64,000 bases of DNA from Rhodovulum sulfidophilum DSM 1374 (lineage in GTDB: Bacteria > Pseudomonadota > Alphaproteobacteria > Rhodobacterales > Rhodobacteraceae). Position 1 is the stretch's first letter, and every line of letters starts with the position of its first letter. The stretch lies in the NCBI RefSeq assembly GCF_001633165.1, contig NZ_CP015418.1, positions 1,406,501-1,470,500 of the forward strand, given 5' to 3'. Below are positions 16,471 to 35,886 of this stretch, piece by piece. The notes below the pieces were generated by a model that worked only from the letters and a program-made list of their open reading frames with translations, did no database searches and had not been told where the DNA came from. The translations under genes and the position numbers were made by a program.

Positions 16471-17556
16471 CTAGCGGAAACGGCGGCGATATTCGGACGG
16501 CGACAGGCCGACCTCTTTCTTGAACGCCTTGCCGAAATAGTTGGCATCCTGGAAGGACAGGTCGAGAGAGACGTTCGTGATGGGCAGGTCGCTGTCCTGC
16601 AACAGCTGCTTGGCACGCTCGATGCGCTGGGCCTTGAGGTAGGAGATGAAGGTCACGTCCATCTCCTTGCGGAACAGGCGGCTGAGATAGCAGGGGCTGA
16701 TCTGCGCGAAATCGGCCGCATCCTCCAGCGTCACGCCCTTGTGCAGGTTGCGTTCGATATAGTTCAGCACATCCTGGATCCGGTCCGAGGCATGGGCGCC
16801 GCCGGATTCGTTGGCCTCGAACAGCACGTCGGTGATCTGACAGAGGATCTCCTGCACCTGGAAATGGCTGTGCAGGTCCAGCCGCTGCGTTTCGAGCGCT
16901 TCGACATGACGGGCGAGGGTGGCGGGCAGCGCCAAGCCGCGCCGTTCGACCATCTGCAGCATGATGCGCATGAATTCCATCACGGCGCGGCGGGGCGCGG
17001 CCTCGCGCTGGGCGTATATCGTTTCGAGATGACGGCGCACCAGCGCCAGGCATTCGCGATAGGCGCTTTGGTCGACCAGCTCGGCGATACGGTCGGCGAC
17101 CGGCGGCTCCGGCGCGCGGATCGAGTCCGGCGCGGGCGCGGGGGCGGTCACGGTCCAGGCATCGGCGGCGCGCGCCGCCACCGGCTCATGCTCCGGCAGA
17201 CACTCGCGCACCGCCTTCAGAAGATCGGCGGTGCGGATCGGCTTGAGCAGGAAATTGTCGGCCTTGAGGTGGATCGCGCTCTGCATGAGTTCGAAATAGT
17301 CATAGGCCGTCAGGATCATGACCTTGGTTGCGAGGCCGCGATCGCGCACCGACTGGATGACCTCGAGCCCGGTCGGGCGCGGGATCTTGATGTCGACCAG
17401 CATCAGGTCGATATGCTGGCTGTCGATCAGGGCCATTGCCTCGGTGCCGTTGCGGGCCTCGCCCACGATCCGGCAGCCGTCGAGGTTCTTCTCCAGGATG
17501 CTGCGCAGGGCGCGGCGCTCCAGCTCCTCGTCTTCGATGATAGCGATATCGAACAT
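16471..17556 (-). CDS. Response regulator with AraC-type DNA-binding domain, BMC locus regulator
   Basis: 361 residues of the YesN type. The receiver domain (1-115) has the acid pair near Glu8-Asp9-Glu10, phospho-acceptor Asp55 (LMLVDIKIP) and Lys105 (LLKPI). A middle helical linker leads to an AraC/XylS double helix-turn-helix (about 260-361) with DAADFAQISPCYLSRLFRK and LPITNVSLDLSF. It is the last gene of the minus-strand microcompartment series, 12 bp after its histidine kinase, so it most likely activates the BMC operons at 32.9-33.6 kb in response to the diol substrate. Confidence 0.88.
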   Translation of the reverse strand: MFDIAIIEDEELERRALRSILEKNLDGCRIVGEARNGTEAMALIDSQHIDLMLVDIKIPRPTGLEVIQSVRDRGLATKVMILTAYDYFELMQSAIHLKADNFLLKPIRTADLLKAVRECLPEHEPVAARAADAWTVTAPAPAPDSIRAPEPPVADRIAELVDQSAYRECLALVRRHLETIYAQREAAPRRAVMEFMRIMLQMVERRGLALPATLARHVEALETQRLDLHSHFQVQEILCQITDVLFEANESGGAHASDRIQDVLNYIERNLHKGVTLEDAADFAQISPCYLSRLFRKEMDVTFISYLKAQRIERAKQLLQDSDLPITNVSLDLSFQDANYFGKAFKKEVGLSPSEYRRRFR

Positions 17557-17568
17557 GGGGTCCGTTCC

Positions 17569-18969
17569 TTAGTCCTGTCGCGCCTGGGCCGTGGCTTCGT
17601 CGAAGCCGGTCGGCAGCCGCAGCCGCACCAGGGTGCCGCGTCCGTCGCGAAACGGGCTGACGATTTCTAGACCGTGGCCGTCGCCGAAATAGTGCCGGAG
17701 GCGGCTGTCAACATTATGAATGCCGATGCTTTTGCGGCCGCGCCGGTCGGCGGTTCCGGCCAGCACTTCGATCCGGCGTTCGGTCGAGATGCCGTCGCCA
17801 TTGTCGGTGATGTCGACGATCACGTCCTGACCGTCGCGATAGGCGCGGATCTCGACCAGACCGTCTCTTTCGCGCGGCTCGACGGCATAGTTGATGCAGT
17901 TCTCGACGATGGGTTGCAGCACCATGAACGGGCAGGACACCTCGCTCAGCTGCTCGGGCAGGTCGATCGAGAAGCTGAAGCGGTCGCCCAGCCGCAGCTG
18001 CAGCAGGAACAGGTAGTTCCGGACATGCTCGACCTCGGTGGCGAGCGGCACGAACTGGGTGCCGCTTTTCTTGAGAATGTAGCGCATCATGTCGGCGAAG
18101 GCATGCACCGTGCTTTCGGTCTGTTCGGCATCCTCGATCAGCGCGAGCCGGCCGATGGTGTTCAGCACGTTGAACAGGAAATGCGGGTTCACCTGATAGG
18201 ACAGGGCCTGCAATTCGGCCTCGCGGAGCGAGCGTTCCAGCTCGGCGCGGTGCTTGGATTCCTCCATCAGCCGCAGGTTCTTGGCGTAAAGCTCCTGGGT
18301 GACGCTGCTGGAATAGCTCTCCTCGACGATATGCGAGGCGATGTAGAACAGCGAATAGGCGGCCGAGCGCAGCCGCCCGTAGGAAATCTCGCCGATGTCA
18401 TGGTACAGCGCCATCAGGCGCGGATCTTCGCGCCAGGACGCCTCGACCGGGAAGAGCCCCGAGAAATCGATGAGATCGGGGGCCATCTCGCCGGGCCGCA
18501 TCTTGACCTGGCCGCAGATCACCGCCCCCAGATATTCGCCCCGCATGATGATCGGCGCGGCGAAGTCGACGAGGCCCGCATGGCATTTGTAGATCGAGGG
18601 ATCGCCGGTCGAAAGCGCCGTGCGACCGCCCACCGCGTCGCAGTGATAGCAGCGCTCGCGCCATTTCGGATGGTGCCGGATGGTGTCGCAGAACGAGCTG
18701 AAGCCGCTTGGCCGGGTGACCGGCTCGCCCTCGGGGTCGACGATCACCATGGCGACGCCCACCGCCGCGCTGAAATTGTCCTGGACCTTCTGCAGCATGT
18801 CGATGCTCATCAGGTCGGCAAGGCGCTGGCGGCGGGCGGTTTTGGCCTCGAGGGTCTCGCCGCCGCCGCCACGCGGAGAAGGTGTATTCTTGATGTATGA
18901 ATTCGGGTGGGCTTCGGGGTTCAGTTGAAAGCCTTCTGCAAGGCGACCGCCCGATCCGTCCGCTCCCAT
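17569..18969 (-). CDS. PocR-domain sensor histidine kinase (LytS/YesM type), BMC locus
   Basis: Up to 466 residues. A PocR ligand-binding domain (about 50-215) carries four Cys (94, 107, 110, 129) in the arrangement FC..(12)C..C..(18)C. A coiled region follows, then a His_kinase/HATPase pair with phospho-acceptor His263 (QVNPHFLFNVLN), the N box IVENCINYAV and the Gly box SIGIHNVDSRL. PocR is the sensory domain of the propanediol regulator PocR in Salmonella, so a diol signal fits. The longest start (18969) overlaps metK by 49 bp; an internal ATG at 18810 would remove the first PocR helix. It partners the response regulator 12 bp downstream. Confidence 0.88.
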   Translation of the reverse strand: MGADGSGGRLAEGFQLNPEAHPNSYIKNTPSPRGGGGETLEAKTARRQRLADLMSIDMLQKVQDNFSAAVGVAMVIVDPEGEPVTRPSGFSSFCDTIRHHPKWRERCYHCDAVGGRTALSTGDPSIYKCHAGLVDFAAPIIMRGEYLGAVICGQVKMRPGEMAPDLIDFSGLFPVEASWREDPRLMALYHDIGEISYGRLRSAAYSLFYIASHIVEESYSSSVTQELYAKNLRLMEESKHRAELERSLREAELQALSYQVNPHFLFNVLNTIGRLALIEDAEQTESTVHAFADMMRYILKKSGTQFVPLATEVEHVRNYLFLLQLRLGDRFSFSIDLPEQLSEVSCPFMVLQPIVENCINYAVEPRERDGLVEIRAYRDGQDVIVDITDNGDGISTERRIEVLAGTADRRGRKSIGIHNVDSRLRHYFGDGHGLEIVSPFRDGRGTLVRLRLPTGFDEATAQARQD

Positions 18970-20072
18970 GGGAACCCCTCTGTGTCCCGCCCAAAATGCC
19001 CGTAGGCCGCCGTTCTTTCAAAGACCGGCCGACGAAGCTCCAAGGTTTCGATCATTCCCGCTACCGAAAGCGGGAAGACCGACCGGACCGCTTTTTCAAG
19101 CTTGTCCGGATCTGCCTCGCAGCCAGAAGGTAAGGTAATCCCTACCATCTCGGGAAGTAACTGACCTATCGCAAATGCGAGCGACACTTCACAACTTTGT
19201 GCGATCCGTGCCGCAACGATATTTTTCGCGATATAGCGGCACATATAGGCCGCCGTGCGGTCGACCTTGGTCGAATCCTTGCCCGAGAAGGCGCCGCCGC
19301 CATGACGGCCGATGCCGCCATAGGTATCGACCATCAGCTTGCGCCCGGTAAGCCCGGTATCGGCGGCGGGGCCGCCCAGCACGAAGCGCCCGGTCGGGTT
19401 GATCAGCACCCGGGTCTCGGCGCGCAGCCAATGGCCCATCACCGGCGCGATCACCTCTCCGATCAGGCCGCGCAGCATGTCCTCGCGGTCGATCTCGGGG
19501 TCGTGCTGGGCCGAAAGCACCAGACTGCGCAGCACCGCCGGCCGGCCATCGGCGCCGATCTCGAAGGTGACCTGCGCCTTGCCGTCGGGGCGCAGCCAGG
19601 GCAGCCGGCCGGAATGGCGCACCGCCGCCAGCGTTTCGGTCAGCCGGTGGGCATAATGGATCGTGGCGGGCATCAGCGTCGGCGTCTCGTCGCAGGCGAA
19701 GCCGTAGAAGATGCCCTGATCGCCCGCGCCGATCTCGGCATCGCGCGACACGCCCTGGGCGATGTCGGGCGACTGTTCGTGCAGGTCGGTCAGGATGAAG
19801 CAGCCCTCGGCATCGAAGCCGAGCGCGGGGTCGCTATAGCCGATCCGGCGGAGCACGCCGCGCGCAACGGCCGACACGTCCACATGGGCGGTCGAGGTGA
19901 TCTCGCCCGCGATATGCAGGGTGTTGCCCGAGGCCAGCACCTCGGCCGCGACGCGCGCCATCGGGTCCTTGGCGACATAGGCATCGAGGATGGCGTCCGA
20001 GATCTGGTCGCAGACCTTGTCCGGGTGACCTTCGGTGACCGATTCAGAGCTTATGCAGGTTGTCATGGCCAA
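18921..20072 (-). CDS. metK: S-adenosylmethionine synthetase embedded in the BMC locus
   Basis: 383 residues, full length. It makes SAM from ATP and methionine. Signature motifs are intact: TEGHPDKVCDQISDAILD near the N-terminus, GAGDQGIFYGFACDET, and the P-loop-like GGGAFSGKD. It lies 36 bp downstream of the radical-SAM activase gene in the same minus-strand series. SAM is the activase's co-substrate, so this looks like a dedicated copy supplying the glycyl-radical system. The sequence is divergent for an alphaproteobacterial MetK (FYGF where many read MFGY), consistent with a second, locus-specific paralogue; the housekeeping copy would be elsewhere. Confidence 0.93.
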   Translation of the reverse strand: MAMTTCISSESVTEGHPDKVCDQISDAILDAYVAKDPMARVAAEVLASGNTLHIAGEITSTAHVDVSAVARGVLRRIGYSDPALGFDAEGCFILTDLHEQSPDIAQGVSRDAEIGAGDQGIFYGFACDETPTLMPATIHYAHRLTETLAAVRHSGRLPWLRPDGKAQVTFEIGADGRPAVLRSLVLSAQHDPEIDREDMLRGLIGEVIAPVMGHWLRAETRVLINPTGRFVLGGPAADTGLTGRKLMVDTYGGIGRHGGGAFSGKDSTKVDRTAAYMCRYIAKNIVAARIAQSCEVSLAFAIGQLLPEMVGITLPSGCEADPDKLEKAVRSVFPLSVAGMIETLELRRPVFERTAAYGHFGRDTEGFPWERTDRAVALQKAFN

Positions 20073-20108
20073 CGCCTCCTTTCAGTGCAGGGTCGGATGC
20101 GGTCGGGG

Positions 20109-21026
20109 TCAGCCCCCGACCACGCAGGTCAGTCCGAAGGATTCGATGGCCTCGACCAGAGGCGTGACCGTTTCGGGTTTCATGTTCGGGGTGTCGCCCA
20201 TCGGATAGGAGCGGCCGAGCAGCGAGTACTTGTTCTCGCCATAGGTATGGTAGGGCAGCAGATGGACGGTATCGACGCCCCGCATCAGCTTGGCGAAACG
20301 GGCAACCGCCTCGGCGGCCTCGATGCTGTCATTGACGCCCGGCACCACCGGGACCCGCACCACGGTATGGGTCAGCGACGAGATGCACAGCGCGTTTTCC
20401 AGGATGATCCGGTTGTCGACACCGGTATTGGCGACATGCGCGTCGGGGTCGATCGACTTCATGTCGAGCAGCACATGGTCGACATGGGGGATCACGTCGC
20501 GCACGATCTCGCGCGTGGTGTAGCCCGTCGTCTCCATCGCGGTGTTCCAGCCCTGTTCGTGGCAGGCCATCAGCAGCTGCTTGGCGAATTCGTGCTGGAA
20601 CAGCGGCTCGCCGCCCGACAGCGTCACGCCGCCGCCCGAACGGCGATAGTGGATCGCATCCTTGCGCAATTCCTGCATGACCTGGGTCACGCTCATCTTC
20701 TTGCCGGACATGCTCAGCGCCTGGGTCGGGCAGACCGTCGTGCAGGTGCCGCATTCGACGCATTTCGAGCGGTCGACAAAGCCTGGATTGGTCGGGGCCA
20801 GCGCCTGGGTCGGGCAGACCGGCACGCATTGGCCGCATTTGATGCAGCTTGACGAGCGGAAGAAGAGTTCCGGTTCGGGATTCTGGCTTTCGGGGTTCGA
20901 GCACCAGCGGCAGCGCAGCGGGCAGCCTTTCAGAAAGACGATGGTGCGGAGCCCGGGCCCGTCATGGATCGAATAGCGTTGAATGTCGAAGACCGTGCCT
21001 TCGCAGGAATAGTCGATGTCGGTCAT
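20109..21026 (-). CDS. Glycyl-radical enzyme activase (radical SAM, PflA family)
   Basis: 305 residues. It installs the glycyl radical on the dehydratase by reductive cleavage of SAM. The radical-SAM cluster motif is Cys35-X3-Cys39-X2-Cys42 (KGCPLRCRWCSNPE). Between it and the core lies a two-[4Fe-4S] ferredoxin-like insert, Cys61/64/67/71 and Cys89/92/95/99, as in activases of CutC, glycerol dehydratase and HPAD. SGGEPLFQ is the conserved SAM-binding GGE motif. It needs anaerobic conditions and a flavodoxin/ferredoxin donor. Its partner is the dehydratase at 29690-32227; it is often labelled cutD-like, but the partner here is not a choline lyase. Confidence 0.94.
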   Translation of the reverse strand: MTDIDYSCEGTVFDIQRYSIHDGPGLRTIVFLKGCPLRCRWCSNPESQNPEPELFFRSSSCIKCGQCVPVCPTQALAPTNPGFVDRSKCVECGTCTTVCPTQALSMSGKKMSVTQVMQELRKDAIHYRRSGGGVTLSGGEPLFQHEFAKQLLMACHEQGWNTAMETTGYTTREIVRDVIPHVDHVLLDMKSIDPDAHVANTGVDNRIILENALCISSLTHTVVRVPVVPGVNDSIEAAEAVARFAKLMRGVDTVHLLPYHTYGENKYSLLGRSYPMGDTPNMKPETVTPLVEAIESFGLTCVVGG

Positions 21027-21072: not shown

Positions 21073-21381
21073 TCAGAAGGCAGCGGGTTGTGCCGCCGCC
21101 TCGATTGCCGCCATCGCCATGCGCACGGCCGAGGTCTCGCCCAGCACCGCCAGGGTGGTGGTGGTCTGCGGGCAGGAGCCGAAAAGCTCGACCGTGTAGA
21201 CATTGGCCGTCTTTCCGGCCAGGTCGGCGTAATAGAAGAGATCCGGGACGGAGGTCTGGACAAAGCCGATCGCCGAGATCGGATTGGCCTCGATCCACTT
21301 GCGCGTATGCGGAGCAATGCGCCTCGTGAGCATATCCATGATATTCTCTTGCGGCGCGTTGATGACCCTCATCATGTGCAT
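21073..21381 (-). CDS. grpU: GrpU-type BMC shell protein with Fe-S cluster motif
   Basis: 102 residues of the hexameric BMC-domain fold, in the permuted/PduU-like GrpU group that is confined to glycyl-radical microcompartments. The signature GSCPQ (68-72, Cys70) sits where GrpU proteins coordinate an iron-sulfur cluster at the hexamer pore, one Cys per subunit. That makes an electron conduit across the shell conceivable, for example to re-reduce the activase. Three possible starts lie close together (21381, 21375, 21372). It sits between the activase and the aldehyde dehydrogenase genes. Confidence 0.8.
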   Translation of the reverse strand: MHMMRVINAPQENIMDMLTRRIAPHTRKWIEANPISAIGFVQTSVPDLFYYADLAGKTANVYTVELFGSCPQTTTTLAVLGETSAVRMAMAAIEAAAQPAAF

Positions 21382-21431: not shown

Positions 21432-23108
21432 TCAGCGGACGTTCAGCGCCTCGACCATCACGCATTTGCGTTTGCGCGCGAACGATTTGGGCGAGGTCAG
21501 CCCTTCGCCGGTCGGGCCCGCGATGGTGAAGGTCGTGTAGCCTTCGCCGCCGACGGCCAGACCGGCATAGGAGGGGCCGTTCTTGACGAAGATCGTGGTC
21601 TGGATGAGCTTGGCCATCTTGGTCAGCTTGCGCACGTTGGTCGAATGCATCATCGCCGTGTGCCGGTTGCCGTTTTCCAGCTCGACCGCCAGATCGATGG
21701 CATCGTCGACACTGGGCGCGCGCACCACCGGCAGGACCGGCATCATCAGCTCTTCGCGGACGAAGACATGATCCTTGTCGGCCTCGGTCAGGATGACCTT
21801 GACATCGTCGCCCACGGTGATGCCGATCAGGCCCAGAAGATGGGCCGCGCTCTTGCCGACGCAGGAGGTTTTCGGCCCGCCCTTCTCGTTGATGACAACG
21901 CCCTCAAGCTGTTTGACGACCGCCGGGTCCTTGATGAGATAGGCCCCGCATTTCTGCATTTCCGAGATCAGGAAGTCGGCGATCTGGTTGACCGCGATCA
22001 CTTCCTTTTCGGCGATGCAGGGCAGGTTGTTGTCGAAGCTGCAGCCGTTGACGATGTCGCGGGCGGCCTTCTCGATATCGGCGGTCTCGTCGACCACCAC
22101 CGGCGGGTTGCCCGCGCCCGCGCCGATCGCCTTCTTGCCGGTCGACATCACCGTTTTGACGATGCCCGGGCCGCCGGTCGCGACCAGCATCCGGACCTTG
22201 GGATGGGCCATCATCGCGTTGGTGTTGTCGATCGAGGGCGTCTGCACCGTCACCACCAGGTTGGCGGGCGCGCCGAGCGTCGCGAGCTTGCGGTTGATCA
22301 GCTTGATCGTCAGCAGCGAGACCTTGGTCGCGCGCGGATGGACGCTGAACACCGCCGAGTTGCCGGCCGCCAGCATGCCGATCGAGTTGCAGATGATCGT
22401 CTCGGTCGGGTTGGTGGTGGGGGTGATCGCACCGACCACGCCGAAGGGCGAGTATTCGACCAGCGTCAGCCCGTCATCGCCGCTGACCGCAGCGGTGGTC
22501 AGATCCTCGATGCCGGGGGTCTTCTCGCAGGCCAGCCGGTTCTTGATGATCTTGTGGGCGGGGTTGCCCATCCCGGTTTCCTCGGCCGCCATATGCGAGA
22601 TCCGCTCGAGCGTGCCATTCGACAGGATCACCTCGCGGATGCCGTCGATGAACTGCTTGCGGGCCGCCATGGTGCAGAACAGGTACTGGCGCTGGGCCAG
22701 TTCGGCCGCCGCGATGGCCTCGTCCATGGTCGCGAAGACGCCGTCGCCGAGGGTGGTCGCTTCATCATCCGAGATCGCGACGCCTTCGGAGCTGTCCGAA
22801 TGCGGGCAGACCGAGCAGGGTTTCTTGTCGCCGAGCGCCTGCGAGACCAGATCGTTGACGATGTCGTCGATCGGGTCGCCATTGGGGTCGGATTTCGTCC
22901 AGCAGCAGCGTTTCGAGCCGGGCACGTAGGCGGGCTTGGTGTCGGCCGCCGGGGCTTCCGAGCTCGACTCGGCCAGGATCCGGGCCACGAGGTCGGACAT
23001 GGGCTCGCCGCTTTTCGGCTTGGCCGGCGGAAGGCCGGCCTCGGCCGCCGTGCTGCCATAGCCGCTCAGCACCTGGGCCACGGCGTCGCTGATATCCTTG
23101 TCGTTCAT
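21432..23108 (-). CDS. CoA-acylating aldehyde dehydrogenase with triple encapsulation-like N-terminus
   Basis: 558 residues, about 90 longer than PduP/EutE. It would oxidise propionaldehyde (or a related aldehyde) to acyl-CoA with NAD+ inside the shell. The catalytic domain starts near residue 120; Cys364 (NNLPC) is the predicted nucleophile and TGGPGIVK (311-318) is the nucleotide loop. The extra N-terminus holds three spaced amphipathic segments of the form D-I/L-V-x-x-L: residues 4-16, 35-48 and 78-94. They look like successive encapsulation peptides. Four Cys (68, 69, 98, 101) bracket the third one, suggesting a metal or Fe-S site. It is encoded between grpU and the GlcG-like gene. Confidence 0.92.
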   Translation of the reverse strand: MNDKDISDAVAQVLSGYGSTAAEAGLPPAKPKSGEPMSDLVARILAESSSEAPAADTKPAYVPGSKRCCWTKSDPNGDPIDDIVNDLVSQALGDKKPCSVCPHSDSSEGVAISDDEATTLGDGVFATMDEAIAAAELAQRQYLFCTMAARKQFIDGIREVILSNGTLERISHMAAEETGMGNPAHKIIKNRLACEKTPGIEDLTTAAVSGDDGLTLVEYSPFGVVGAITPTTNPTETIICNSIGMLAAGNSAVFSVHPRATKVSLLTIKLINRKLATLGAPANLVVTVQTPSIDNTNAMMAHPKVRMLVATGGPGIVKTVMSTGKKAIGAGAGNPPVVVDETADIEKAARDIVNGCSFDNNLPCIAEKEVIAVNQIADFLISEMQKCGAYLIKDPAVVKQLEGVVINEKGGPKTSCVGKSAAHLLGLIGITVGDDVKVILTEADKDHVFVREELMMPVLPVVRAPSVDDAIDLAVELENGNRHTAMMHSTNVRKLTKMAKLIQTTIFVKNGPSYAGLAVGGEGYTTFTIAGPTGEGLTSPKSFARKRKCVMVEALNVR

Positions 23109-23137: not shown

Positions 23138-23629
23138 CTATTCGTTCGAAATTCCGTTCAAGGCCTGACGCGCGATGGCCATGTCCTCGTCGACGGTGCC
23201 GCCGCTGATGCCGACCGCGCCGACCACGGTGCCGCCGCGGCGGACCGGCAGCCCGCCGCCGAAGGCCACGACGCGGCCGTCATGGGTGCTTTCGACGCCG
23301 AAGAGCATGCCGCCCGGTTGCGCCAGACGGCCAAGCTCGTCGGTGCCCATGCGGAAGGCCGCGGCTGTCCATGCCTTGCCGGGGGCCAGCGCGGCGCTGG
23401 CGGGAAGGCTGCCCTCCATCCGGTGGAACAGGATCTGGTCGCCGGTTGCATCGGCCACCGCGATCACCACCGGCACGCCCATCGCCACCGAGGCGGCCTG
23501 GGCGCGGGCGGCGATGGCCTCGGCCTCGGCCAGGCTCAGCCCGGCCGCCGGGGCAGGGGCCACCCCGCGCCGTTCCAGCGCGGCCGTCACCAGCCGTTCG
23601 ATCAGTTGGGTTTCGTCGCGGTTCATCAT
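23138..23629 (-). CDS. GlcG/HbpS-family protein (PduO C-terminal-like), BMC associated
   Basis: 163 residues. GlcG/HbpS-like proteins form small octamers; the domain is also the C-terminal half of PduO and has been linked to haem or cobalamin binding, with no firm catalytic role. Motifs: SLAEAEAIAARAQ, AFRMGTDELG, GGMLFGVES and the Gly-rich PVRRGGTVVGAVGISGG. The N-terminal ETQLIERLVTAALERRG, separated by an Ala/Pro linker, looks like an encapsulation helix. Start at ATG 23629, after GAGGAGG. It overlaps nothing but sits 13 bp after eutN. Such genes are regular members of GRE microcompartment loci. Confidence 0.82.
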   Translation of the reverse strand: MMNRDETQLIERLVTAALERRGVAPAPAAGLSLAEAEAIAARAQAASVAMGVPVVIAVADATGDQILFHRMEGSLPASAALAPGKAWTAAAFRMGTDELGRLAQPGGMLFGVESTHDGRVVAFGGGLPVRRGGTVVGAVGISGGTVDEDMAIARQALNGISNE

Positions 23630-23642
23630 CGCATCCGCCTCC

Positions 23643-23909
23643 TCAATGGGTCTCGACGGTGTCGACGATGCCGACGATGGCAGCATCCGAGACCGATTTG
23701 CCCAGCGTGCCCGCCATCCGCGCGCCGCTGCCCTTGGCGACGATCACCGTCTCGCCCCAGCCCGCGCCGACCGTGTCGACGGCGATCTCGGTGAAGCCGG
23801 TGGGTTCCAGCTGCGGGGTCAGCCGCGCCACGATCAGCAGCTTGGAGCCGGTGAGGCTCGGGTCCTTGCTGGTCGAGACGACGGTCCCGATTACGCGTCC
23901 CAGATGCAT
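23643..23909 (-). CDS. eutN: EutN/CcmL-type pentameric BMC vertex protein
   Basis: 88 residues with the full BMC-P signature: MHLGRVIGTVVSTSKDPSL, GSKLLIVARL, AVDTVGAGWGETVIV and a closing GIVDTV. Pentamers cap the vertices of the icosahedral shell. It is the only BMC-P gene in the locus, which is enough to close a shell. It lies between the flavoprotein and GlcG-like genes with 11-13 bp spacers, so it is part of the same transcript. Confidence 0.95.
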   Translation of the reverse strand: MHLGRVIGTVVSTSKDPSLTGSKLLIVARLTPQLEPTGFTEIAVDTVGAGWGETVIVAKGSGARMAGTLGKSVSDAAIVGIVDTVETH

Positions 23910-23920: not shown

Positions 23921-24715
23921 TTACGCTCTCACGACCCGGACGTGCCGGGCCCGCAATTCTTCCGCCGCCAGCGGCGTGATCAGGACATCGGCGTCGAGCT
24001 TCAGTTCGGCGCTGTCGAAGGTCTTGGCCTGGCTCCAGCCGAAGACCCGCGACCCGGGCACGGGAGGTGTCGCGGTCCCCCGGCCCGGGCCCGGCCCCCG
24101 GTCGCCCGGCCGCGGGGACGCGATGGCATCGCCCAGCTTCGCGGCCCAGGCCAACTCGACTCCATAGCTTTGCAGGCGGAGCAGATGTCCGGTCAGCATC
24201 TCGCGATAGGCTTCGTTCCCGGTCAGCCCGCGCGCCTTGCGCTCGCGGCTGGCGGGGCAGAGGCCGTCGCGGGCCGCCACCACGCGGCGGCCGCGTTCGA
24301 GCGCGCCGGTCAGGAGCGCCGAGACCTCGTCCTCGGCCATGCCGAGCGACGCGCGGGCGGCCAGCGCCGCGCTGAGCGCGGGCACCACCACAAGGCCGTG
24401 ACGTGCCAGAACGCCGTCTATGTCGGTCTCGCCGGGGGCCGCCATCGGCGGGATCGCCCGGGCGCCGCCCAGCAGGCGCAGCCGTTCCGGGGTCAGAAGC
24501 CCGGCCGCGTCGGGGCTGCGGCGGATCTCGAAGGACCAGCCCGCGGCGTTCAGCGGCGACAGCGACCGGATCGCCGCGTCGAGCCCCAGATCGGTGCCCG
24601 AGACCAGCAGCAGCGCCGAGCGCTCGCGGGCCTTCAGGCGGGCCACGATGCGGTCGGACAGCAGGTCCAGCAGGGCCCGGTCGAGCAGGGTATCGAGCAC
24701 GGCGCGGTCCATCAT
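23921..24715 (-). CDS. Flavoprotein-like BMC-associated protein
   Basis: 264 residues. The first 170 residues resemble the flavoprotein (PF02441-like) proteins that accompany glycyl-radical and some Eut-type microcompartment loci: LLLVSGTDLGLD near the nucleotide-binding start, VVPALSAALAARASLG and a conserved Asn/Glu-rich middle (LTGNEAYREML). A Pro/Gly-rich linker (about 200-225) precedes a final DVLITPLAAEEL segment. Known relatives may supply a reduced flavin to the activase or enzymes; that is inferred from neighbourhood. The start ATG at 24715 overlaps the eutJ stop by 4 bp (ATGA), indicating translational coupling. Confidence 0.68.
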   Translation of the reverse strand: MMDRAVLDTLLDRALLDLLSDRIVARLKARERSALLLVSGTDLGLDAAIRSLSPLNAAGWSFEIRRSPDAAGLLTPERLRLLGGARAIPPMAAPGETDIDGVLARHGLVVVPALSAALAARASLGMAEDEVSALLTGALERGRRVVAARDGLCPASRERKARGLTGNEAYREMLTGHLLRLQSYGVELAWAAKLGDAIASPRPGDRGPGPGRGTATPPVPGSRVFGWSQAKTFDSAELKLDADVLITPLAAEELRARHVRVVRA

Positions 24716-28333: not shown

Positions 28334-28420
28334 CGCTCTCTCCTTGCTCACGATGTTGCGTTGATGAAGTTAGACTTGGGGTCTTCGCGCTTTCTGCTCT
28401 GCTGCATTCTCCCTCGTCTC

Positions 28421-29539
28421 CTAACCGCCGACCTGCGCCAGCAGGTCTTCCAGGTCTGCCTGGGACGGTTGTCGTGGGTTGCTGGTCGTGCAGGCATCGG
28501 CCAGCGCAGCCGCCGCGACGACAGAGCGAACGCGACGGTATTCCTCCTTGTCGGCACCGATCTCGGGGATCGTTGCGGGGATGCCGAACAGGGTGTTGAA
28601 CTCGCGGATCTTGGCGATCAGCGCGGTGACGGCGGCACCCGTATCGGGGGCGTCGAGGCCGATCAGCCGGGCGATCCGGGCATAGGCGGCGGCGGCCCTG
28701 GGCTCGACCGCGTTCCACGGGATCACCACCGGCAGCAGCACCGAGTTGGTGCGGCCATGGACCACGTGCAGCTTGCCGCCCAGCGCATGGGCGAGGCTGT
28801 GATTGACGCCAAGCCCCGCGGCGGCGAAGGCGAAGCCCGCCAGGCAGGAGGCCTGGTGCATCGCGTCGCGCGCTTCCATGTCATTGCCATCGGCATAGGC
28901 GCGGGGCAGGTGGGCGAAGGCGAGGCTCAGCGCCTTGTCGGCGAAAGCGTCGGTGAAGTGGTTCGCGCCCCTTGCCACCACGGCCTCGAGCGCGTGGGTG
29001 ATGACGTCCATGCCGGTATCGGCGGTCACCTTGGGGGGGGCCGTGCGCACGAATTCGGGGTCGAGCAGCGCCACGTCGGGCACCAGCTCTTCCGAGATCA
29101 GCGGGAATTTGCGTCCGTTGGCCGGATCCGAGATCACGGCGAAGGTCGTCACTTCGGACCCGGTGCCGCTGGTCGTCGGGATCGCGACGAAGGGGATGTA
29201 GCGGTCGGGATGCATCTCGCGGACGATGGCGAGGATGGCTTTCGCGCCGTCGATCGGCGAGCCGCCGCCAAGCGCGATGATGACTTCGGGGCCGAAGCCG
29301 CCCAGATGGCGGGCGCCGGCGGAAACGGCGTCGATGGGGGTGTCCGGGACAACCTCGTCAAAGACCCGGATCTGGCAGTCGGGCAATGCCTTGCGGACCC
29401 GGTCGAGGGCGCCTGACTGGGCCAGGAAGGCGTCGGTCACGATCCCCACCTTCTGGCCGCGATAGGCGTGCAGGCGGTCCAGCAGGCCGGGGCCGAAGAC
29501 GATCTCGGTCCTGGTTTGGAAACTCGTGTAGCGGGTCAT
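28421..29539 (-). CDS. Iron-type alcohol dehydrogenase of the BMC (PduQ/CutO-like)
   Basis: 372 residues of the Fe-dependent ADH family. It reduces part of the aldehyde to alcohol inside the shell and regenerates the NAD+ used by the aldehyde dehydrogenase. GGGSPIDGAKAI and IPTTSGTGSEVT form the nucleotide site; metal ligands lie in DTGMDVITHALEA and GVNHSLAHALGG. The C-terminal ADACTTSNPRQPSQADLEDLL is typical of BMC ADHs. The ATG at 29539 gives the conserved N-terminus MTRYTSFQTRTEIVFGPG. Located between the dehydratase and the first shell gene. Confidence 0.92.
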   Translation of the reverse strand: MTRYTSFQTRTEIVFGPGLLDRLHAYRGQKVGIVTDAFLAQSGALDRVRKALPDCQIRVFDEVVPDTPIDAVSAGARHLGGFGPEVIIALGGGSPIDGAKAILAIVREMHPDRYIPFVAIPTTSGTGSEVTTFAVISDPANGRKFPLISEELVPDVALLDPEFVRTAPPKVTADTGMDVITHALEAVVARGANHFTDAFADKALSLAFAHLPRAYADGNDMEARDAMHQASCLAGFAFAAAGLGVNHSLAHALGGKLHVVHGRTNSVLLPVVIPWNAVEPRAAAAYARIARLIGLDAPDTGAAVTALIAKIREFNTLFGIPATIPEIGADKEEYRRVRSVVAAAALADACTTSNPRQPSQADLEDLLAQVGG

Positions 29540-29689
29540 TCGGGTCACCTGTTCTTCGCGGGTCGTCGGGTCGGACAGTCTTTCGTGGGCGGCGGACACG
29601 GGCGACGGGGGTCAGGGGAGGAGCCGCCCGTGTCTCTGCCCGGTCGGCCCCCGCTTGCTGCATTGCGGGGACCGGCCTTTCTTGTCGGA

Positions 29690-32227
29690 TCAGAACGTCT
29701 GTTCGGTCCGGCTGATGATGTCGTCCTGCACCTCTTTCGCGAGGACGACGAACTGGGCGCTGTACCCGGCCACGCGGACCACGAGGTCGTTATGGGCTTC
29801 GGGGTGTTTCTGTGCGTCCAGCAGGGTTTCGCGATCGATCACGTTGAACTGCACATGCATGCCCTTGTGATCGAAGTACGACCGCACCAGCGAGGCGAAG
29901 TTCTGCAGGCCCTGGTCACCGGCCAGCGCCGAAGGCAGGAACTTCTGGTTGTAGAGGGTGCCGTTCGAAGCGATGAAGTGGTCCAGCTTGGCCACCGAGT
30001 TGGCAGCGGCGGTCGGGCCCTTCGCGTCCTTGCCTTGCCGCGGCGACACACCGTCCGAAAGCGGCTGCTTGGCGAGACGGCCGTCGGGCAGCGCACCCAC
30101 GTCCTTGCCGAAGAGCACGTTCGCGGACACCGGGTAGATCCCGGCCTGGAACTGGCCGCCACGCGGGTTGGTGTATTTCTCCACCTCGAGGCAGTAGATC
30201 CGGGCGCATTTCCGGGCGATCAGGTCGACATCGTCAATGTCGTTGCCGAAGCATTCGGCCGAGTCCATCAGGCGCCGGATGTTTTCGTACTTGGACGAGT
30301 CCGATGTCGGAGCGCTGTTGGTGGCAAGGGTCCGGTAGACCTCGTCCTTCAGCGTGGCCACATCGACCGAGCTGTTGGTGGAGAGAACCTTGCGCACCGC
30401 GGCGTAGACTTCTTCCTCGGACGGCCCCTTGCTGTTGTCCGCCGGAGCGGACGAGCCGAGCGCGACACCGAAGTTCGCGTCCATGGCTTCCTTGAGGTCG
30501 GCCATCGACACTTTCTTCTCGTCGAAGACGAATTTCTCCATCGCGTAGACCGAGTCGCCGCTATCCGCGACGCCGAAGGCCTGCGGGCCGGTGAAGTTGT
30601 AGATCGCGCCGCCTTCCTGGACCGACTTGCCGCGGCCGAGGCAGTCATCGACCATGGCCGAGAGGAAGGGCAGGGGCGCCCGTTCGGCATGGGCGATGTC
30701 GACGCAGTTGTCGGCTTCGGCGAGGTGTTTGACGAAGAAGGCCATCTGCGCCTTGAACGCCGCGTAGAAGTCGTCGAGCGATTTCCACTCGGTCATCTCG
30801 CCGGTTTTCGGACCCAGCTGCGTGTCGCCCACGCGGCCGTTGTTCATGGTGATTTCCAGAACCTTGGCCACGTTGAAGAACGCCGCGTCGTGCCAGCCTT
30901 CGGTGCGGTGGATCGATTGCGGTTCGACGCAGCCGACAAGACCGTAGTCGCGGGCATGGGCCAGCGAGACACCGCGGTTCTGCAGCGCCGGGATGATCAC
31001 CTCGTCGTTGTAGACGGCCGGAACCCCAAGCCCGAGACGCACGACTTCGGCCGCACGGAACAGGAACTCGTCAGGGGTGCCCTGCCAGACGCGGATCGAG
31101 AAGGACGGCTGCGGCAGCTTCACATGCGCGGTGGCTTCCATGCACATGTAGGACATCTCGTTGGTGGCATCGAGACCGTCTTCGGTCTGACCACCCACGC
31201 AGAGGTTCTGGAACACGGCGTAACCGGCAAAGGCTTGGGCCGAGATTTCGTCGCGGGTCTTGTTGACGTCGTTCAGCTTGATCCAGACGCAGTCGACCAG
31301 TTCCTGGGCGAACTCCTTGCTGATCGACTTGTCGGCCAGGAAGTAGGGGTTCATGTACTGGTCGAACCGGCCGGGCGAGATCGAGTGGCCCGAGGATTCG
31401 ATCTGCAGCATGCACTGGATGAACCACATCGTCTGGCAGGCTTCCCAGAACGTCGAGGCCGGGTTTTCAGGCACGCGGCGGCAGTTCTTGGCGATCTGTT
31501 CCAGTTCCGCCTTGCGGGCCGGGTTCGATTCCTGCGCCGCCAGTTCCTCGGCCTTCGCGGCATAGCGATGGGCGAAGTTGATCGCGGCGTTGTAGGCGAT
31601 CACGGTCGCGTTGTAGAACTGTTTCTTCTTGATGAAGTCCGGGTCTTTCTCGTCCAGGCATTCGATCGACTTGATCGCCTGCTCGATGACGCCGCGGAAG
31701 CCGATCTTGAGGATCTTGCCATAGTCCGCGCAGACGTGGCCGACGCCGCCGAAGTAGTAGTTGCCGACGGTGAAGACGCCATTGTTCATGCAGTCATGGG
31801 TCTTCTTCGACATGTACGAGGCCGCAAGCGCCTGGGTGGTCTTGCCCGGCCAGTACTTGAAGGCCTCATGCAGCTCGGCTGCGGTTTCCTTCGGGATCTC
31901 GAAGGGGTCGGCCATCCGGGTGGCCATCGTGTCGAATTCGGCTTCCACCCATTCGAACGAGAATTCGGGGCAGATTTCGGTCGAGCGCGGGTTCTTGGTG
32001 ACGGCGCCGACGATCAACTCGTCTTCGCGGATGGTGACCGGAAGCTCGTTGAAGATCTTCTCGACGACCTTTGCGCGCCGCAGGATCGCCGGCAGCCCTT
32101 CGGTCGCCTTGTAGGCTTCGGTCGCAAGAACAGCGCGCTCGGACTCGACATAAGGCTTCGCGTCGATGATCTGCTTCTTCAGCCGCAATACGCGGTCCGT
32201 CGGTTTCGTAAAGCCCTTCTCAATCAT
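29690..32227 (-). CDS. Glycyl-radical diol dehydratase (B12-independent propanediol/glycerol dehydratase type)
   Basis: 845 residues. It dehydrates a 1,2-diol to the aldehyde by radical chemistry. Thiyl Cys433 and Glu435 lie in GCVEP, and the glycyl radical is Gly821 in RVAGYSA. The residues that bind diol in Clostridium butyricum glycerol dehydratase (from memory of that structure: His164, His281, Ser282, Asp447) fall at identical numbers: GGVGH164, GH281S282ISPGR, GWHD447. Choline lyase CutC instead has Thr and Tyr at +13 and +17 from its Cys; here they are His446 and Phe450. The protein is about 58 residues longer than that enzyme because of an insert at about 591-645 with two amphipathic helices. 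Partner of the activase at 20109. Confidence 0.9.
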   Translation of the reverse strand: MIEKGFTKPTDRVLRLKKQIIDAKPYVESERAVLATEAYKATEGLPAILRRAKVVEKIFNELPVTIREDELIVGAVTKNPRSTEICPEFSFEWVEAEFDTMATRMADPFEIPKETAAELHEAFKYWPGKTTQALAASYMSKKTHDCMNNGVFTVGNYYFGGVGHVCADYGKILKIGFRGVIEQAIKSIECLDEKDPDFIKKKQFYNATVIAYNAAINFAHRYAAKAEELAAQESNPARKAELEQIAKNCRRVPENPASTFWEACQTMWFIQCMLQIESSGHSISPGRFDQYMNPYFLADKSISKEFAQELVDCVWIKLNDVNKTRDEISAQAFAGYAVFQNLCVGGQTEDGLDATNEMSYMCMEATAHVKLPQPSFSIRVWQGTPDEFLFRAAEVVRLGLGVPAVYNDEVIIPALQNRGVSLAHARDYGLVGCVEPQSIHRTEGWHDAAFFNVAKVLEITMNNGRVGDTQLGPKTGEMTEWKSLDDFYAAFKAQMAFFVKHLAEADNCVDIAHAERAPLPFLSAMVDDCLGRGKSVQEGGAIYNFTGPQAFGVADSGDSVYAMEKFVFDEKKVSMADLKEAMDANFGVALGSSAPADNSKGPSEEEVYAAVRKVLSTNSSVDVATLKDEVYRTLATNSAPTSDSSKYENIRRLMDSAECFGNDIDDVDLIARKCARIYCLEVEKYTNPRGGQFQAGIYPVSANVLFGKDVGALPDGRLAKQPLSDGVSPRQGKDAKGPTAAANSVAKLDHFIASNGTLYNQKFLPSALAGDQGLQNFASLVRSYFDHKGMHVQFNVIDRETLLDAQKHPEAHNDLVVRVAGYSAQFVVLAKEVQDDIISRTEQTF

Positions 32228-32290: not shown

Positions 32291-32881
32291 TCAGTTCACG
32301 GCATCGGGGGCGATGCGGCGCAGGAAGGCGCGCAGGAGCCCCGGGTGACCGGGCCAGGCCGGCGATGTCGCGAGATTTCCGTCGATTACGGTGTCTTCCG
32401 GCGCGACGGCGACATAGGTGCCACCGACGGCGCGGATCTCGGGGGCGACGGCCGGGTAGGCCGTCAGGTTGCGGCCGGCGAGCACGCCCGCGGCTGCAAG
32501 GATCTGCGGCCCGTGGCAGATCGCGGCGACGGGCCGGTCGTCATTCATGAAGGTGCGGACCAGGCCCAGCACCTCGTCGTCGAGCCGCAGATATTCGCAG
32601 GCGCGGCCGCCGGCGAGATAGAGCCCGTGATAGCTGTCGGGTTCGATCAGTCCGAAGGCGGCGGTCAGGCGAAACAGGTGACCGGGCTTTTCGCTATAGG
32701 TCTGGTCGCCCTCGAAATCGTGGATCGCGGTCCGGATGGTGTCGCCCTTGCATTTGCCGGGGCAGACCGCGTCGACCGCGATGCCGACCATGTCCAGCGC
32801 CTGGAGGGGAACCATCACTTCATAATCTTCGGAATAGTCACCGACGATCATGAGGACTTTGTATTTCGAGGAACCGAACAT
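32291..32881 (-). CDS. DJ-1/PfpI family protein, first gene of the BMC series
   Basis: 196 residues of the class-I glutaminase-like DJ-1/PfpI superfamily. The nucleophile elbow is [10 protein letters not shown] with Cys in the elbow, and an acidic partner near [11 protein letters not shown]. PfpI-like enzymes include glyoxalase III/deglycases, so dealing with reactive aldehyde leaking from the compartment is possible but unproven. It is 63 bp upstream of the dehydratase gene and is a common companion in GRE microcompartment loci. The ATG at 32881 follows GCGAAGGAA; the open frame upstream of it is leader sequence. Confidence 0.85.
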
Positions 32882-33608
32882 TCCATTTCCTTCGCGATGG
32901 GCCGCGTCGTTGAATGGAGAATAGGTGTTTGCCGGGTCTCGGAGCAACGCGAAGGGTTTGACAATGACGGGTAATTGCTTGCCGGAGGGCGGCAAAACGG
33001 GCGCAATGGCCTTGAAAACAAGGAGATTGACGTTGGGGGAAGCCGAGCGGCGAAAATCGGGTCGATGACAATAAAATACCCGGGCGGGTAAAATCTTGTC
33101 ATGGGAAGGTCAAGATAACCCTGCAAGGGCCGCGCGAAGCTGTGTCGCCTGCTGTGCCCGCGGTTCGGCGTGGGAATCGCTGTAGGAGCACAACCTATTG
33201 AAATAAAATATTAAATTTTGGAATTTGGCGTGCCGGTCAAGCCTTTTCTGCATCCCTGAGAGGGCGCGTTCCTGGTCTTTCCCGTTTCTGGCAAGAAATC
33301 ACCTGCAGAGGCCAAGTTCCCCGCGTTGACCGTTTTCAGAAATTCGCACACCATTATTTACGACGACGCGCCCAAATTCGGGTTTCGTTTCGATATTCCG
33401 ATATCGGGGGATGTAGGTTTTCCATCCGGGCAGGCGATCTGTTTTCCGGTCTGGGTGATTTACATTTTCGAAATCCGGCGGCGGTTGCGGAGCGAATGGA
33501 AACCGAAAGAAACGACACGAGGTCTTGAAAGCGGAATCGAAGTGAGCGCGCAAATCCAGTTTCTGGATTTCGGGCAAACGATGTCGGTTGCGTTGCAAGG
33601 AGGAACAA
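32882..33608. promoter_or_regulatory. Divergent control region of the two BMC operons
   Basis: 727 bp without a supported gene between the minus-strand BMC series and the plus-strand pair. It includes the most AT-rich run of the window (33192-33232, about ATAAAATATTAAATTTTGG), a palindrome CCGATATCGG at 33398-33407, and on the minus strand TTGACC elements near 33240 and 33110. Both promoters and the binding sites of the AraC-type response regulator should be here. No clear -24/-12 or FNR site was found. Confidence 0.6.
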
Positions 33609-34520
33609 ATGACTGCACTCGGTTTACTGGTCGCCTTCGGGGGCGGCATTTTCGGGGCGGCGATCGGCGCATTGCCGGCCTTCGCCTTCGTGGGCATCCT
33701 GACGATCGCGGGCGTCGCGATCCAGCTGGCGGTCGCGCCCGCGGCCACCGACTTTTTCGGGATCCCCTTCGGCGTTTTCGGTCCGCATGTGGGCGGGTTC
33801 GCCTCGGGCGTTGCCGCCGCGGCCTATGCGGCCTCGAAGGGCAAGCTTGACAGCGGCCGCAACATCGTGACCGCGGGGATGGGGCTGAACAGTCCCGACG
33901 TGCTGCTGGTCGGCGGCATCTTCGGGATCGTCGGCTACGTGATCTGCTGGGGTGTCGCGATGGTGCCCGATGTGGGCCCGGGCCTGCCCTGGACCGACTA
34001 TCCCGGCATGAGCGTCGTGATCTCGGCCTTCATCGTGCGCTTCATCTGGGGCACCTGCGGGCTGTGCGGCAAGGCGCCTGAAGGCGAGCGCTTCTTCCAT
34101 CCGACCGATGCCACCAAATGGCTGGTCTTCCAGAGCAGCTTTGGCCAGATCGCCATGATCGGTGTCGGCGTCGGGCTTCTGGGCGGCTGGCTGGGCATCA
34201 CCTACGGCATGCCCGGTGCGCTTCTGGCCTTCGGCATCGCGGCGGCGAGCCTGCTGTTCCTGACCGTCGGCGTGCTGACCCCCGTCACCCACCACATCGC
34301 GTTGCCGGCCGCCATCGTCGGCGTGGCCTCGGGCAGCATCATCTGGGCCGGTATCGCGGGTCTCGTCTGCGCCTTCGTCGGCGAGTTCTTCGCCCGCATC
34401 TTCCTTGATCGCGGCGACACCCATATCGACCCGCCGGCCTGCACCATCGCGGCCATGACGCTGGTCTTCAACGTCCTGACCTCCATCGGTTTCTGGGCTC
34501 TCCTCCCAATGCCGGTGTGA
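33609..34520 (+). CDS. Polytopic membrane protein of unknown function in the BMC locus
   Basis: 303 residues with about eight to ten hydrophobic segments rich in Gly, Ala, Ile and Val (e.g. LLVAFGGGIFGAAIGALPA, IVGYVICWGVAMVPD, MIGVGVGLLGGWLG). No signal peptide; two Cys in WGTCGLCGK. A strong AAGGAGG lies before ATG 33609. It is the first gene of a two-gene plus-strand unit with the acyl kinase, divergent from the BMC genes. I do not recognise the family. Uptake of the diol or export of the acid/alcohol products are the obvious guesses from context, without direct evidence. Confidence 0.82.
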   Translation: MTALGLLVAFGGGIFGAAIGALPAFAFVGILTIAGVAIQLAVAPAATDFFGIPFGVFGPHVGGFASGVAAAAYAASKGKLDSGRNIVTAGMGLNSPDVLLVGGIFGIVGYVICWGVAMVPDVGPGLPWTDYPGMSVVISAFIVRFIWGTCGLCGKAPEGERFFHPTDATKWLVFQSSFGQIAMIGVGVGLLGGWLGITYGMPGALLAFGIAAASLLFLTVGVLTPVTHHIALPAAIVGVASGSIIWAGIAGLVCAFVGEFFARIFLDRGDTHIDPPACTIAAMTLVFNVLTSIGFWALLPMPV

Positions 34521-34551
34521 TCCGGGGGCAGACCGACACCCTGCACCCCGA

Positions 34552-34603
34552 ACGGGCGGCACGACACCCCTCCTCCCAAACTCCCCCCTGTCGTGCCGCC
34601 CGT
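34552..34603 (+). repeat. 15-bp perfect inverted repeat between the membrane protein and kinase genes
   Basis: ACGGGCGGCACGACA (34552-34566) pairs perfectly with 34589-34603 across a C-rich 22-nt loop. There is no T-run after it. It sits 30 bp before the kinase start, so it may be an intercistronic stability element, an attenuator or a partial terminator that sets kinase level. Confidence 0.7.
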
Positions 34604-34632
34604 CCTTGCTGTTTCAAAGAAAGGACGATCTC

Positions 34633-35886
34633 ATGATCCTGACCATCAACTGCGGCAGTTCCAGCCTGAAGTATCAGCTTTACACGACCGATCTGTCCGA
34701 AGTCGTGGCGAAGGGTCTGATTGCCAGGATCGGAGAGACCGGTTCCTATTCGGATCACAAGGCCGGATGCCGCGGCGAGAAGGTCGCGCTTCCGGTTCCT
34801 GACCACAAGACTGCGCTGGAGCTGATGCTGGCCAGCCTCATGCATGCCGATTACGGCGTGATCGACGGCCCCGCGGCGATCTCGGCGATCGGCCACCGCG
34901 CGGTTCATGGCGGAGATGTCTTCGTCGATTCGGTGGTCGTCGATGACGAGGTCATGGCCCAGCTTCGCGCCTGCATCGGCTTTGCGCCGCTGCACAACCC
35001 CTGCAACATCGCCGGCATCGACGCCGCGAAACGGCTGTTCCCGGGCGTGCCGAATGTCGTGGTGTTCGATACCGCGTTTCACCAGACCGTTCCGCCCGAA
35101 GCGCATGTCTATGCGCTGCCCTATGAGCTCTATTCCAAGCATGGTGTGCGGAAATACGGCTTTCACGGCACCTCCTGCCGCTATGTCAGCCAGGCCGCAG
35201 CCGATCTGCTGAACTGGCCGATCGGGGACATGAAGATGGTGATCTGCCATCTCGGCAACGGGGTCACGCTGACCGCAGTCGATGGCGGCAAGTCGGTCGA
35301 TACCTCGATCGGGTTCGGCACTGTCGGCGGGGTTCCCATGGGCACCCGGTCGGGGGATTTCGACCCCACGATCATCTTCCACCTGGTCAACCAGCTCGGC
35401 ATGGATCTGAAGGATGTCGAGAAGCTCTGCTATCACAAGAGCGGTCTGCTGGGCGTCTCGGGCGTCAGCAACGACATGCGCGAAGTGACCATGCGGGCAG
35501 AGCATGGCGACGAACGCTGCGCGCTGGCGGTCGAGATCTTCGTCTATCAGATCAAGAAGACCATCGGCGCCTATGCCGCCGCGATGAACGGGCTCGATGC
35601 CCTGGTCTTCACCGCGGGCATTGGCGAGAACAGTGCCGAGATCCGGTCGCGGGTCTGCGCCGGGCTGGGGGTTCTCGGGGTCCGGATCGACGAGGCGTCG
35701 AACGAGGTGGCGCGCGACGGCTATCCGAATATCAGCGCCCCCGACGCCTCGGTCGCGACCCTGGTCGTACCGACCGACGAGGAGCGGATGATCGCGATGG
35801 ACACGCTGCGTCTGACGCCCGAGCACCTCCTGACCACTCCGCGTGGCGTCTCTTCGCGCGGATACGAACAGGCGCGGCCGATCTAG
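34633..35886 (+). CDS. ackA: Acetate/propionate kinase
   Basis: 417 residues. It makes ATP from acyl-phosphate supplied by PduL, the only energy-yielding step of the BMC pathway. The family motifs are intact: MILTINCGSSSLKYQ at the N-terminus, AIGHRAVHGG, VFDTAFHQTVP, YGFHGTS, HLGNG and TAGIGENS near the end. The length is about 15 longer than AckA. Start at ATG 34633 after AAAGAAAGGACGATCTC. Whether acetate or propionate is preferred cannot be read from sequence; propionate is expected if the compartment uses 1,2-propanediol. Confidence 0.94.
   Translation: MILTINCGSSSLKYQLYTTDLSEVVAKGLIARIGETGSYSDHKAGCRGEKVALPVPDHKTALELMLASLMHADYGVIDGPAAISAIGHRAVHGGDVFVDSVVVDDEVMAQLRACIGFAPLHNPCNIAGIDAAKRLFPGVPNVVVFDTAFHQTVPPEAHVYALPYELYSKHGVRKYGFHGTSCRYVSQAAADLLNWPIGDMKMVICHLGNGVTLTAVDGGKSVDTSIGFGTVGGVPMGTRSGDFDPTIIFHLVNQLGMDLKDVEKLCYHKSGLLGVSGVSNDMREVTMRAEHGDERCALAVEIFVYQIKKTIGAYAAAMNGLDALVFTAGIGENSAEIRSRVCAGLGVLGVRIDEASNEVARDGYPNISAPDASVATLVVPTDEERMIAMDTLRLTPEHLLTTPRGVSSRGYEQARPI

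Follow-up and report, generated by a model that had tools for sequence, protein, structure and literature searches.

A well-preserved GRM3-type microcompartment locus of Rhodovulum sulfidophilum, with a candidate diol channel and a putative linker related to PduM

Does one stretch of the Rhodovulum sulfidophilum DSM 1374 genome encode every part of an organelle for propanediol use, and, if so, how would the diol reach it and how would its enzymes be held to its shell? These questions are raised by a locus at 16471..35886 of a 64,000-nucleotide stretch of DNA (the window; positions 1406501-1470500 of contig 1 of the 4.35-Mb genome), which an earlier note, made from the sequence alone, had read as a complete glycyl-radical microcompartment (GRM) locus of the GRM3 class acting on 1,2-propanediol. 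We conclude, with a probability of about 0.9, that the locus encodes a complete canonical GRM3-type metabolosome (GrpU-bearing and GRM3b-like) for B12-independent 1,2-propanediol use, as predicted from its genes. The kind of organelle is already known, and the locus is a well-preserved purple-bacterial example of it. We also lean, on comparative sequence evidence, towards a two-part proposal: that DUF7973 membrane proteins may be an undescribed family of channels for small solutes, admitting 1,2-propanediol to cells with GRM3 organelles in place of the unrelated PduF/GlpF-type facilitator in most such loci; and that PduM, of unexplained origin, has its C-terminal module in common with a linker of flavoprotein fold, which would make relatives of the core-to-shell linkers of the propanediol utilization (PDU) and GRM3 systems.

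On the minus strand, 17 genes occupy 32995 down to 16471, spaced by -49 to 110 bp, and a plus-strand pair diverges from them; all 19 are open frames lying where the earlier note had placed them. In order of transcription the minus-strand genes encode a DJ-1/PfpI protein, the glycyl radical enzyme (GRE), an iron-dependent alcohol dehydrogenase (Fe-ADH), the bacterial microcompartment (BMC) shell proteins BMC-H, tandem BMC-T and a tailed BMC-H, PduL, EutJ, a 264-aa protein, BMC-P, a DUF336 protein, an aldehyde dehydrogenase (AldDH), GrpU, the GRE activase, MetK, a PocR-domain kinase and an AraC-type regulator. The plus-strand pair encodes a DUF7973 membrane protein and then acetate kinase. GC content at third codon positions was scored for all of the 19 genes but GrpU and the 102-aa BMC-H, and is 0.77-0.90 in these 17. 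Profile scans gave family matches above curated cut-offs for enzymes, shell proteins, ancillary proteins and regulators, which bears out the full parts list drawn up before, and on inspection the signature residues of the locus proteins are intact; every part named in that list is present, and the list left out only the seventeenth gene, that of the DJ-1/PfpI protein. All five BMC-domain matches of the genome sit within the locus, and its GRE is the only glycyl-radical domain match of the genome. A genome search for a B12 diol dehydratase gave no hit, but neither did its controls, and no absence is claimed.

The GRE, a diol dehydratase of 845 aa (29690..32227, minus strand; PF02901 E=1.2e-244, PF01228 E=4e-38), carries Cys433, Glu435, His164, Ser282, Asp447 and Gly821, residues to which functional roles are ascribed. 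In the alignment its start matches that of glycerol dehydratase and it has no N-terminal targeting extension. An internal two-helix encapsulation insertion at about residues 588-645 (30293..30466), unaligned to 1r8w and chain 9rco, occurs in each of the 11 GREs aligned, that of the window among them, but not in the glycerol dehydratase 1r8w; it is the intramolecular encapsulation peptide published for R. palustris (available part of PMC5311937). The activase (20109..21026, minus strand; TIGR02494, 370.8 bits, cut-off 174.35) is a radical S-adenosylmethionine (SAM) enzyme in which the radical-SAM triad CX3CX2C is accompanied by two ferredoxin-type clusters, CX2CX2CX3C. In the protein search the GRE closest to that of the window, at 92% identity, comes from Rhodovulum visakhapatnamense, and the Rhodopseudomonas palustris GRE P0042 is 76% identical, placing the enzyme in the 1,2-propanediol dehydratase group as judged by identity and alignment rather than by a tree.

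The assignment to GRM3 and to 1,2-propanediol, in agreement with the earlier note, rests on gene content, synteny, this 76% identity and the class-specific insertion of ~60 residues. The locus holds a GRE with both Pfam domains and a cognate activase, an AldDH with an N-terminal extension, an alcohol dehydrogenase, PduL and acetate kinase, and BMC-H, BMC-T and BMC-P shell genes. The ancillary list of Axen 2014 (available part of PMC4207490), comprising a kinase, a peptidase, a flavoprotein, EutJ, MetK, a two-component pair and DUF336, is found here in full when the DJ-1/PfpI protein is counted as the peptidase, which it probably is, and the flavoprotein is accepted on its relatives and fold. 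GRM3b was set apart by Ferlez 2019, nearly all of its members having GrpU (available part of PMC6325248); here GrpU is present and PduT is not, one of the five BMC domains of the genome being GrpU-like and none lying in a second tandem protein.

Could the substrate nevertheless be a different one? The GRE belongs to the C. butyricum glycerol dehydratase family (1080 bits to 1r8w), with several relatives carrying the name 'cobalamin-independent glycerol dehydratase', so that glycerol or another diol might be the main substrate and the GRE a glycerol dehydratase. We judge this very unlikely, given the identity to the R. palustris GRE: the BisB18 enzyme, when assayed, was a 1,2-propanediol dehydratase and not a glycerol dehydratase, giving no product from glycerol in a coupled assay (available part of PMC5311937). 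Two further features point the same way, namely the class insertion, which glycerol dehydratase lacks, and position 339, which is Phe in 11/11 aligned GREs and Tyr in 1r8w. A compartment for choline (GRM1/2 type) or for fuculose or rhamnose phosphate (GRM5 type) would share the GRE superfamily and a similar shell set, but is scarcely credible here, the CutC model scoring 577 bits, below its cut-off of 1050, the GRE starting as glycerol dehydratase does with no N-terminal extension, and no aldolase family match being found among the locus proteins scanned.

The 1,2-propanediol assignment can be set against related loci, for which we took the best 80 of a longer list encoding GRE relatives in a GTDB-based genome collection. 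In 7/7 alphaproteobacterial loci (L006-L011 and L035) the genes from PfpI through activase stand in the window's order; one of these loci is that of R. capsulatus SP108 (L035), one of the species proposed earlier for a comparison of gene order. MetK comes next after the activase in 5/7 of these stretches, with none in L035 and none in L010, whose stretch breaks off close to the activase; the divergent membrane protein occurs in 6/7 and the kinase in 4/7. BMC domains occur in 11 of 292 sampled genomes of the order, and five matches in only two, the window's genome and one other (G140).

The divergent membrane protein is our candidate for diol entry. The gene at 33609..34520 (plus strand, ATG 33609) encodes a multi-helix protein of DUF7973 (PF25928), proposed as a 1,2-propanediol facilitator on the strength of homologues and context. 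The family was assigned via homologues, from precomputed matches on the 120 listed of 826 (the best 96% identical). DUF7973 is found in 24/30 chosen genomes with related loci, its surroundings overlapping the fetched locus in 20 of the 24, and a MIP gene lies inside the locus in 6/6 genomes without DUF7973, compared with 0/11 of the DUF7973-bearing genomes tested. Three enterobacterial loci carry a PduF/GlpF-family channel directly after the activase, the place of DUF7973 in syntenic relatives, and no locus examined has both. Across the order DUF7973 occurs in 2/292 genomes, the two with five BMC matches. The 24 best of the top 1000 Foldseek chains are urea transporter (UT; ranks 1-13) or Amt/Rh proteins (ranks 14-24), a weak fold match, and an internal repeat is likewise weak (25.4, with at most 22.0 in 40 shuffles). 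In the literature searched we found no publication on DUF7973 and no description of a permease of this type tied to glycyl-radical propanediol compartments. An undescribed membrane family thereby gains a testable role, diol entry, backed by loci that are otherwise syntenic but have, by natural exchange, a channel of the aquaglyceroporin family in its stead, and this bears on how diols reach such organelles.

The candidate linker is the 264-aa protein (23921..24715, minus strand), which combines an N-terminal helix, an HFCD-flavoprotein fold predicted for residues 26-206 (24098-24640) and a PduM C-terminal module at residues 219-264 (23924-24061). Its earlier label of flavoprotein is backed by relatives and predicted fold, though not by a Pfam match of its own, of which there is none. 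TIGR02536 (eut_hyp, 'ethanolamine utilization protein') is the best NCBIfam match of the family, found in 12/21 members with a best E of 7.9e-12, and the window's protein gave no match to it at E 0.1. We take HFCD proteins to have a conserved Asn in their motif; the motif is without it in 8/8 alphaproteobacterial members of the family. Against the curated PduM model the protein scores 19.2 bits (cut-off 179), the sharing being shown for the C-terminal ~43 residues only, and the PduM model TIGR04493 gave only weak C-terminal matches, in four of 18 genomes, and none in the window's. PduM is described as a shell-core linker in PDU (available part of PMC9132943), and its link to the GRM3 'flavoprotein' hints at a core-to-shell linker in what has been listed as a possible electron shuttle, which bears on how cargo attaches to shells. 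No link between PduM and flavoproteins in microcompartments was found in the literature searched. Separately, the N-terminal part of PduM was tried as a decayed flavoprotein, a reading that is not claimed: the whole family scored 22.9 (60 shuffles at most 16.5) over just 21 columns, and the proteobacterial subset reached 19.5 across 46 columns (its shuffles 17.2 at most) in a different register.

Each of these two proposals has a competitor. In the window, as in the relatives L006, L013, L026 and L045, DUF7973 adjoins acetate kinase, and its channel-fold match is weak; both points would suit a protein carrying something else of the pathway, such as an ion or exported propionate or propanol, rather than the substrate. 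We hold this to be possible but on balance unlikely, because a PduF/GlpF-family channel takes its place in the three enterobacterial loci, never co-occurring with it, and because among the 292 genomes of the order it is limited to the two with five BMC matches; the DUF7973 protein beside the locus is, on this comparative evidence, a likely propanediol entry channel. For the 264-aa protein, the alternative to a structural linker would be a functional flavoprotein serving as electron donor to the activase. The motif Asn of HFCD proteins is missing from all eight alphaproteobacterial members, and the C-terminal module belongs to PduM, the linker of PDU (available part of PMC9132943); electron transfer is a doubtful role on both counts, and a linker appears the better account.

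Attachment of core to shell would also involve the shell proteins. The major BMC-H (28043..28351, minus strand; PF00936 E=2.4e-28) has the PduA/J position, as in PDU stretches, and the tandem BMC-T (27195..28013, minus strand) is of the PduB type (NF011944, 430.3 bits, cut-off 173, residues 1-272). It matches PduB end to end, and its N-terminal helix is therefore the known PduB element of residues 1-37 (available part of PMC9132943). At the PduK position, the tailed BMC-H (26400..27182, minus strand; PF00936 E=3.8e-24) has a tail of ~168 residues (26403-26909), with an acidic linker of net -28 and a basic tip of net +9 in the last 20 residues. We surveyed 42 loci, made up of the window and 41 of the fetched 80 (L006-L045 and L074), counting as a tail 40 or more residues. 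Of these, 30/42 have a tailed BMC-H; the other 12 (L016, L028-L032, L037 and L040-L044) include several partial stretches, and just five of them show any BMC-H. The tip, again the last 20 residues, is net +3 or more in 28/30 tails, the remainder of the tail is neutral or acidic in 29/30, and the tip is more basic than in permuted tails at p 0.05 in 26/30 by statistics that ignore relatedness (L009, L012, L022 and L023 lie above this value). Two tails break the pattern, L022 (tip +1) and L023 (tip 0, linker +13). The charge layout is conserved across classes and the tail sequence is not. The Symbiopectobacterium tail of L023 (8160-8798, minus strand), with its basic linker and neutral end, perhaps belongs to a decaying gene. 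The window's tail has no Cys and lacks the tetracysteine (Fe-S) motif found in 5/5 PduK of PDU stretches. BMC-H extensions are known in general (available part of PMC8217296). Comparison did not bear out the earlier view that the set of targeting helices and the tailed shell protein are less usual, since the GRE helices are published, the BMC-T helix is that of PduB and the tailed BMC-H is found in 30/42 loci. The pore motif of the GrpU-type BMC-H (21073..21381, minus strand; PF00936 E=3.7e-7, 30.5 bits, cut-off 24.5) also needed correction: it reads GSCPQT, with a final Thr in place of the N/H of G-x-C-P-Q-[N/H] given before, as in 3/19 GrpU-bearing relatives' loci (L006, L009 and L035). The BMC-P vertex protein (23643..23909, minus strand; PF03319 E=1.9e-28) is at the PduN position.

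The acylating AldDH (PduP/EutE type, 558 aa; 21432..23108, minus strand; NF011927, 701.8 bits, cut-off 403) has its catalytic Cys within NNLPC and an N-terminal extension of ~120 residues. A two-helix extension is published for R. palustris (available part of PMC5311937), and by eye that of the window has three candidate helical segments. Between the second and third of these lies the motif P-x(2-6)-C-x-W, whose C-C-W occupies residues 68-70 (22899..22907). Of 121 aligned rows, counting the window and two near-copies, 71 have an extension of at least 60 residues; the motif is found in 32 of the 71, where shuffles predict 0.9, and 14 have a CxC/CxxC cluster just ahead of the catalytic domain. 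The BisB18 AldDH (P0295) has neither. The motif and the Cys cluster, on which the earlier note was silent, do look uncommon, no description of the motif having been found in the literature searched, and a metal-binding or contact motif is possible.

Regulation appears to be encoded in the locus as well. Pfam matches support the two-component regulator described before, which consists of a PocR-domain histidine kinase (17569..18969, minus strand; 466-aa frame, QVNPHFLFN box; PF10114 E=2.6e-50, PF06580 E=9.2e-27) and a 361-aa response regulator with a receiver and an AraC-type helix-turn-helix (16471..17556, minus strand; PF00072 E=1.8e-24, PF12833 E=6.1e-23). A candidate operator spans 32971..33302 of the divergent region, with 13-base half-sites GTAATTTCTTGTC, each with two mismatches, at 32971(+), 33067(-)/33088(+), which form an inverted pair, and 33290(-). 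The pattern was drawn from the window, L006 and L007, up to two mismatches being allowed; the 713-bp PfpI-DUF7973 divergent region has four matches (shuffle mean 0.01) of five in the whole 64 kb, the fifth (27779) lying within the BMC-T coding region. L006 has three and L007 five, and loci outside the pattern source have two (L035), two (L008), one (L011) and none (L009), with shuffle means of 0.005-0.045. Such a pair has its starts separated by 21 bp in three loci (the window, L006 and L007) and by 22 bp in L035. A search for strict palindromes in the window and relatives found none, and only the half-site statement stands; we propose that the AraC-type regulator may act at these half-sites. 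For the R. capsulatus cluster of the same kind, a 76- to 250-fold rise is reported in a regA mutant under anaerobic growth (available part of PMC5359404).

The remaining minus-strand genes encode the Fe-ADH (28421..29599; PF25137 E=9.3e-51, PF00465 E=5.4e-42), the phosphate propanoyltransferase PduL, with an N-terminal helix by eye (25582..26289; PF06130 E=8.5e-72; NF011652, 260.8 bits, cut-off 209), the EutJ-type chaperone-like ATPase (24712..25551; NF011660, 358.5 bits, cut-off 182), the GlcG/HbpS-like DUF336 protein, a counterpart of the PduO C-terminal domain by its position in PDU stretches (23138..23686; PF03928 E=1.7e-37), and the S-adenosylmethionine synthetase MetK (18921..20072; TIGR01034, 488.9 bits, cut-off 309.4). 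Two MetK copies were found in the genome, one of them at the locus, so that the word 'dedicated' applied to it before is fair. The DJ-1/PfpI protein (32291..32881; TIGR01382, 149.3 bits, cut-off 139.05) has a frame extendable to 32995 and probably starts at the ATG at 32881, behind GAAGGA, rather than at the TTG at 32995. On the plus strand, the acetate/propionate kinase (34633..35886; TIGR00016, 459.2 bits, cut-off 293.4) has its first ATG at 34633 and a frame extendable to 34606. Outside the locus lie an acetamidase/formamidase family gene (PF03069, 14493-15812) on the left and, on the right, genes for an HSP20 family protein (PF00011, 37300-37782) and a radical SAM protein that is HemN-like by eye (PF04055, 40737-42134).

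Taken together, the parts suggest how the organelle may work. BMC-H pores are the substrate route through the shell across the class, and 1,2-propanediol, having entered the cell via the DUF7973 protein, would take it. With SAM from the locus MetK, the activase would form the Gly821 radical on the GRE, which would dehydrate 1,2-propanediol to propionaldehyde, as shown for the R. palustris BisB18 enzyme (available part of PMC5311937). AldDH and PduL would convert this via propionyl-CoA to propionyl-phosphate, from which the kinase would yield propionate and ATP, and Fe-ADH would form propanol and recycle NADH, steps drawn from pathway knowledge. By analogy with PDU work, core and shell may be tied by the enzyme helices, the PduB N-terminus and the protein with flavoprotein fold and PduM module, the tailed BMC-H at the PduK position probably serving cytosolic contacts or positioning. 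The PocR kinase and AraC-type regulator would work through the divergent promoter region, the repeated half-sites being the probable target.

How does the locus compare with known systems? With the GRM3/GRM3b loci of R. capsulatus and R. palustris BisB18 it shares the full set of enzymes, shell, ancillary proteins and regulators, the intramolecular GRE insertion and GrpU. Its AldDH extension is longer than that of BisB18 and has the P-x(2-6)-C-x-W absent from P0295; in the fetched stretch of R. capsulatus SP108 no MetK lies between activase and kinase, and the locus MetK may therefore be dispensable in some relatives. The resemblance of DUF7973 to urea transporter and Amt channels is a lead only. 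The 264-aa protein resembles the HFCD flavoproteins DmrB, EpiD, CoaC and UbiX in the predicted fold of residues 26-206, but adds the N-terminal helix and the PduM module and, in the alphaproteobacterial lineage, lacks the motif Asn. With PDU (pduJ-K-L-M-N-O-P) the locus is collinear in BMC-H, tailed BMC-H, PduL, PduM module, BMC-P and DUF336 in five PDU stretches, AldDH being reached in one, and it shares the PduB-type BMC-T. It differs from PDU in having a GRE and activase in place of the B12 enzymes and DUF7973 in place of PduF, in the BMC-T and EutJ that sit inside the collinear run, in a BMC-H tail without the PduK tetracysteine and in a PduM module fused to a flavoprotein fold.

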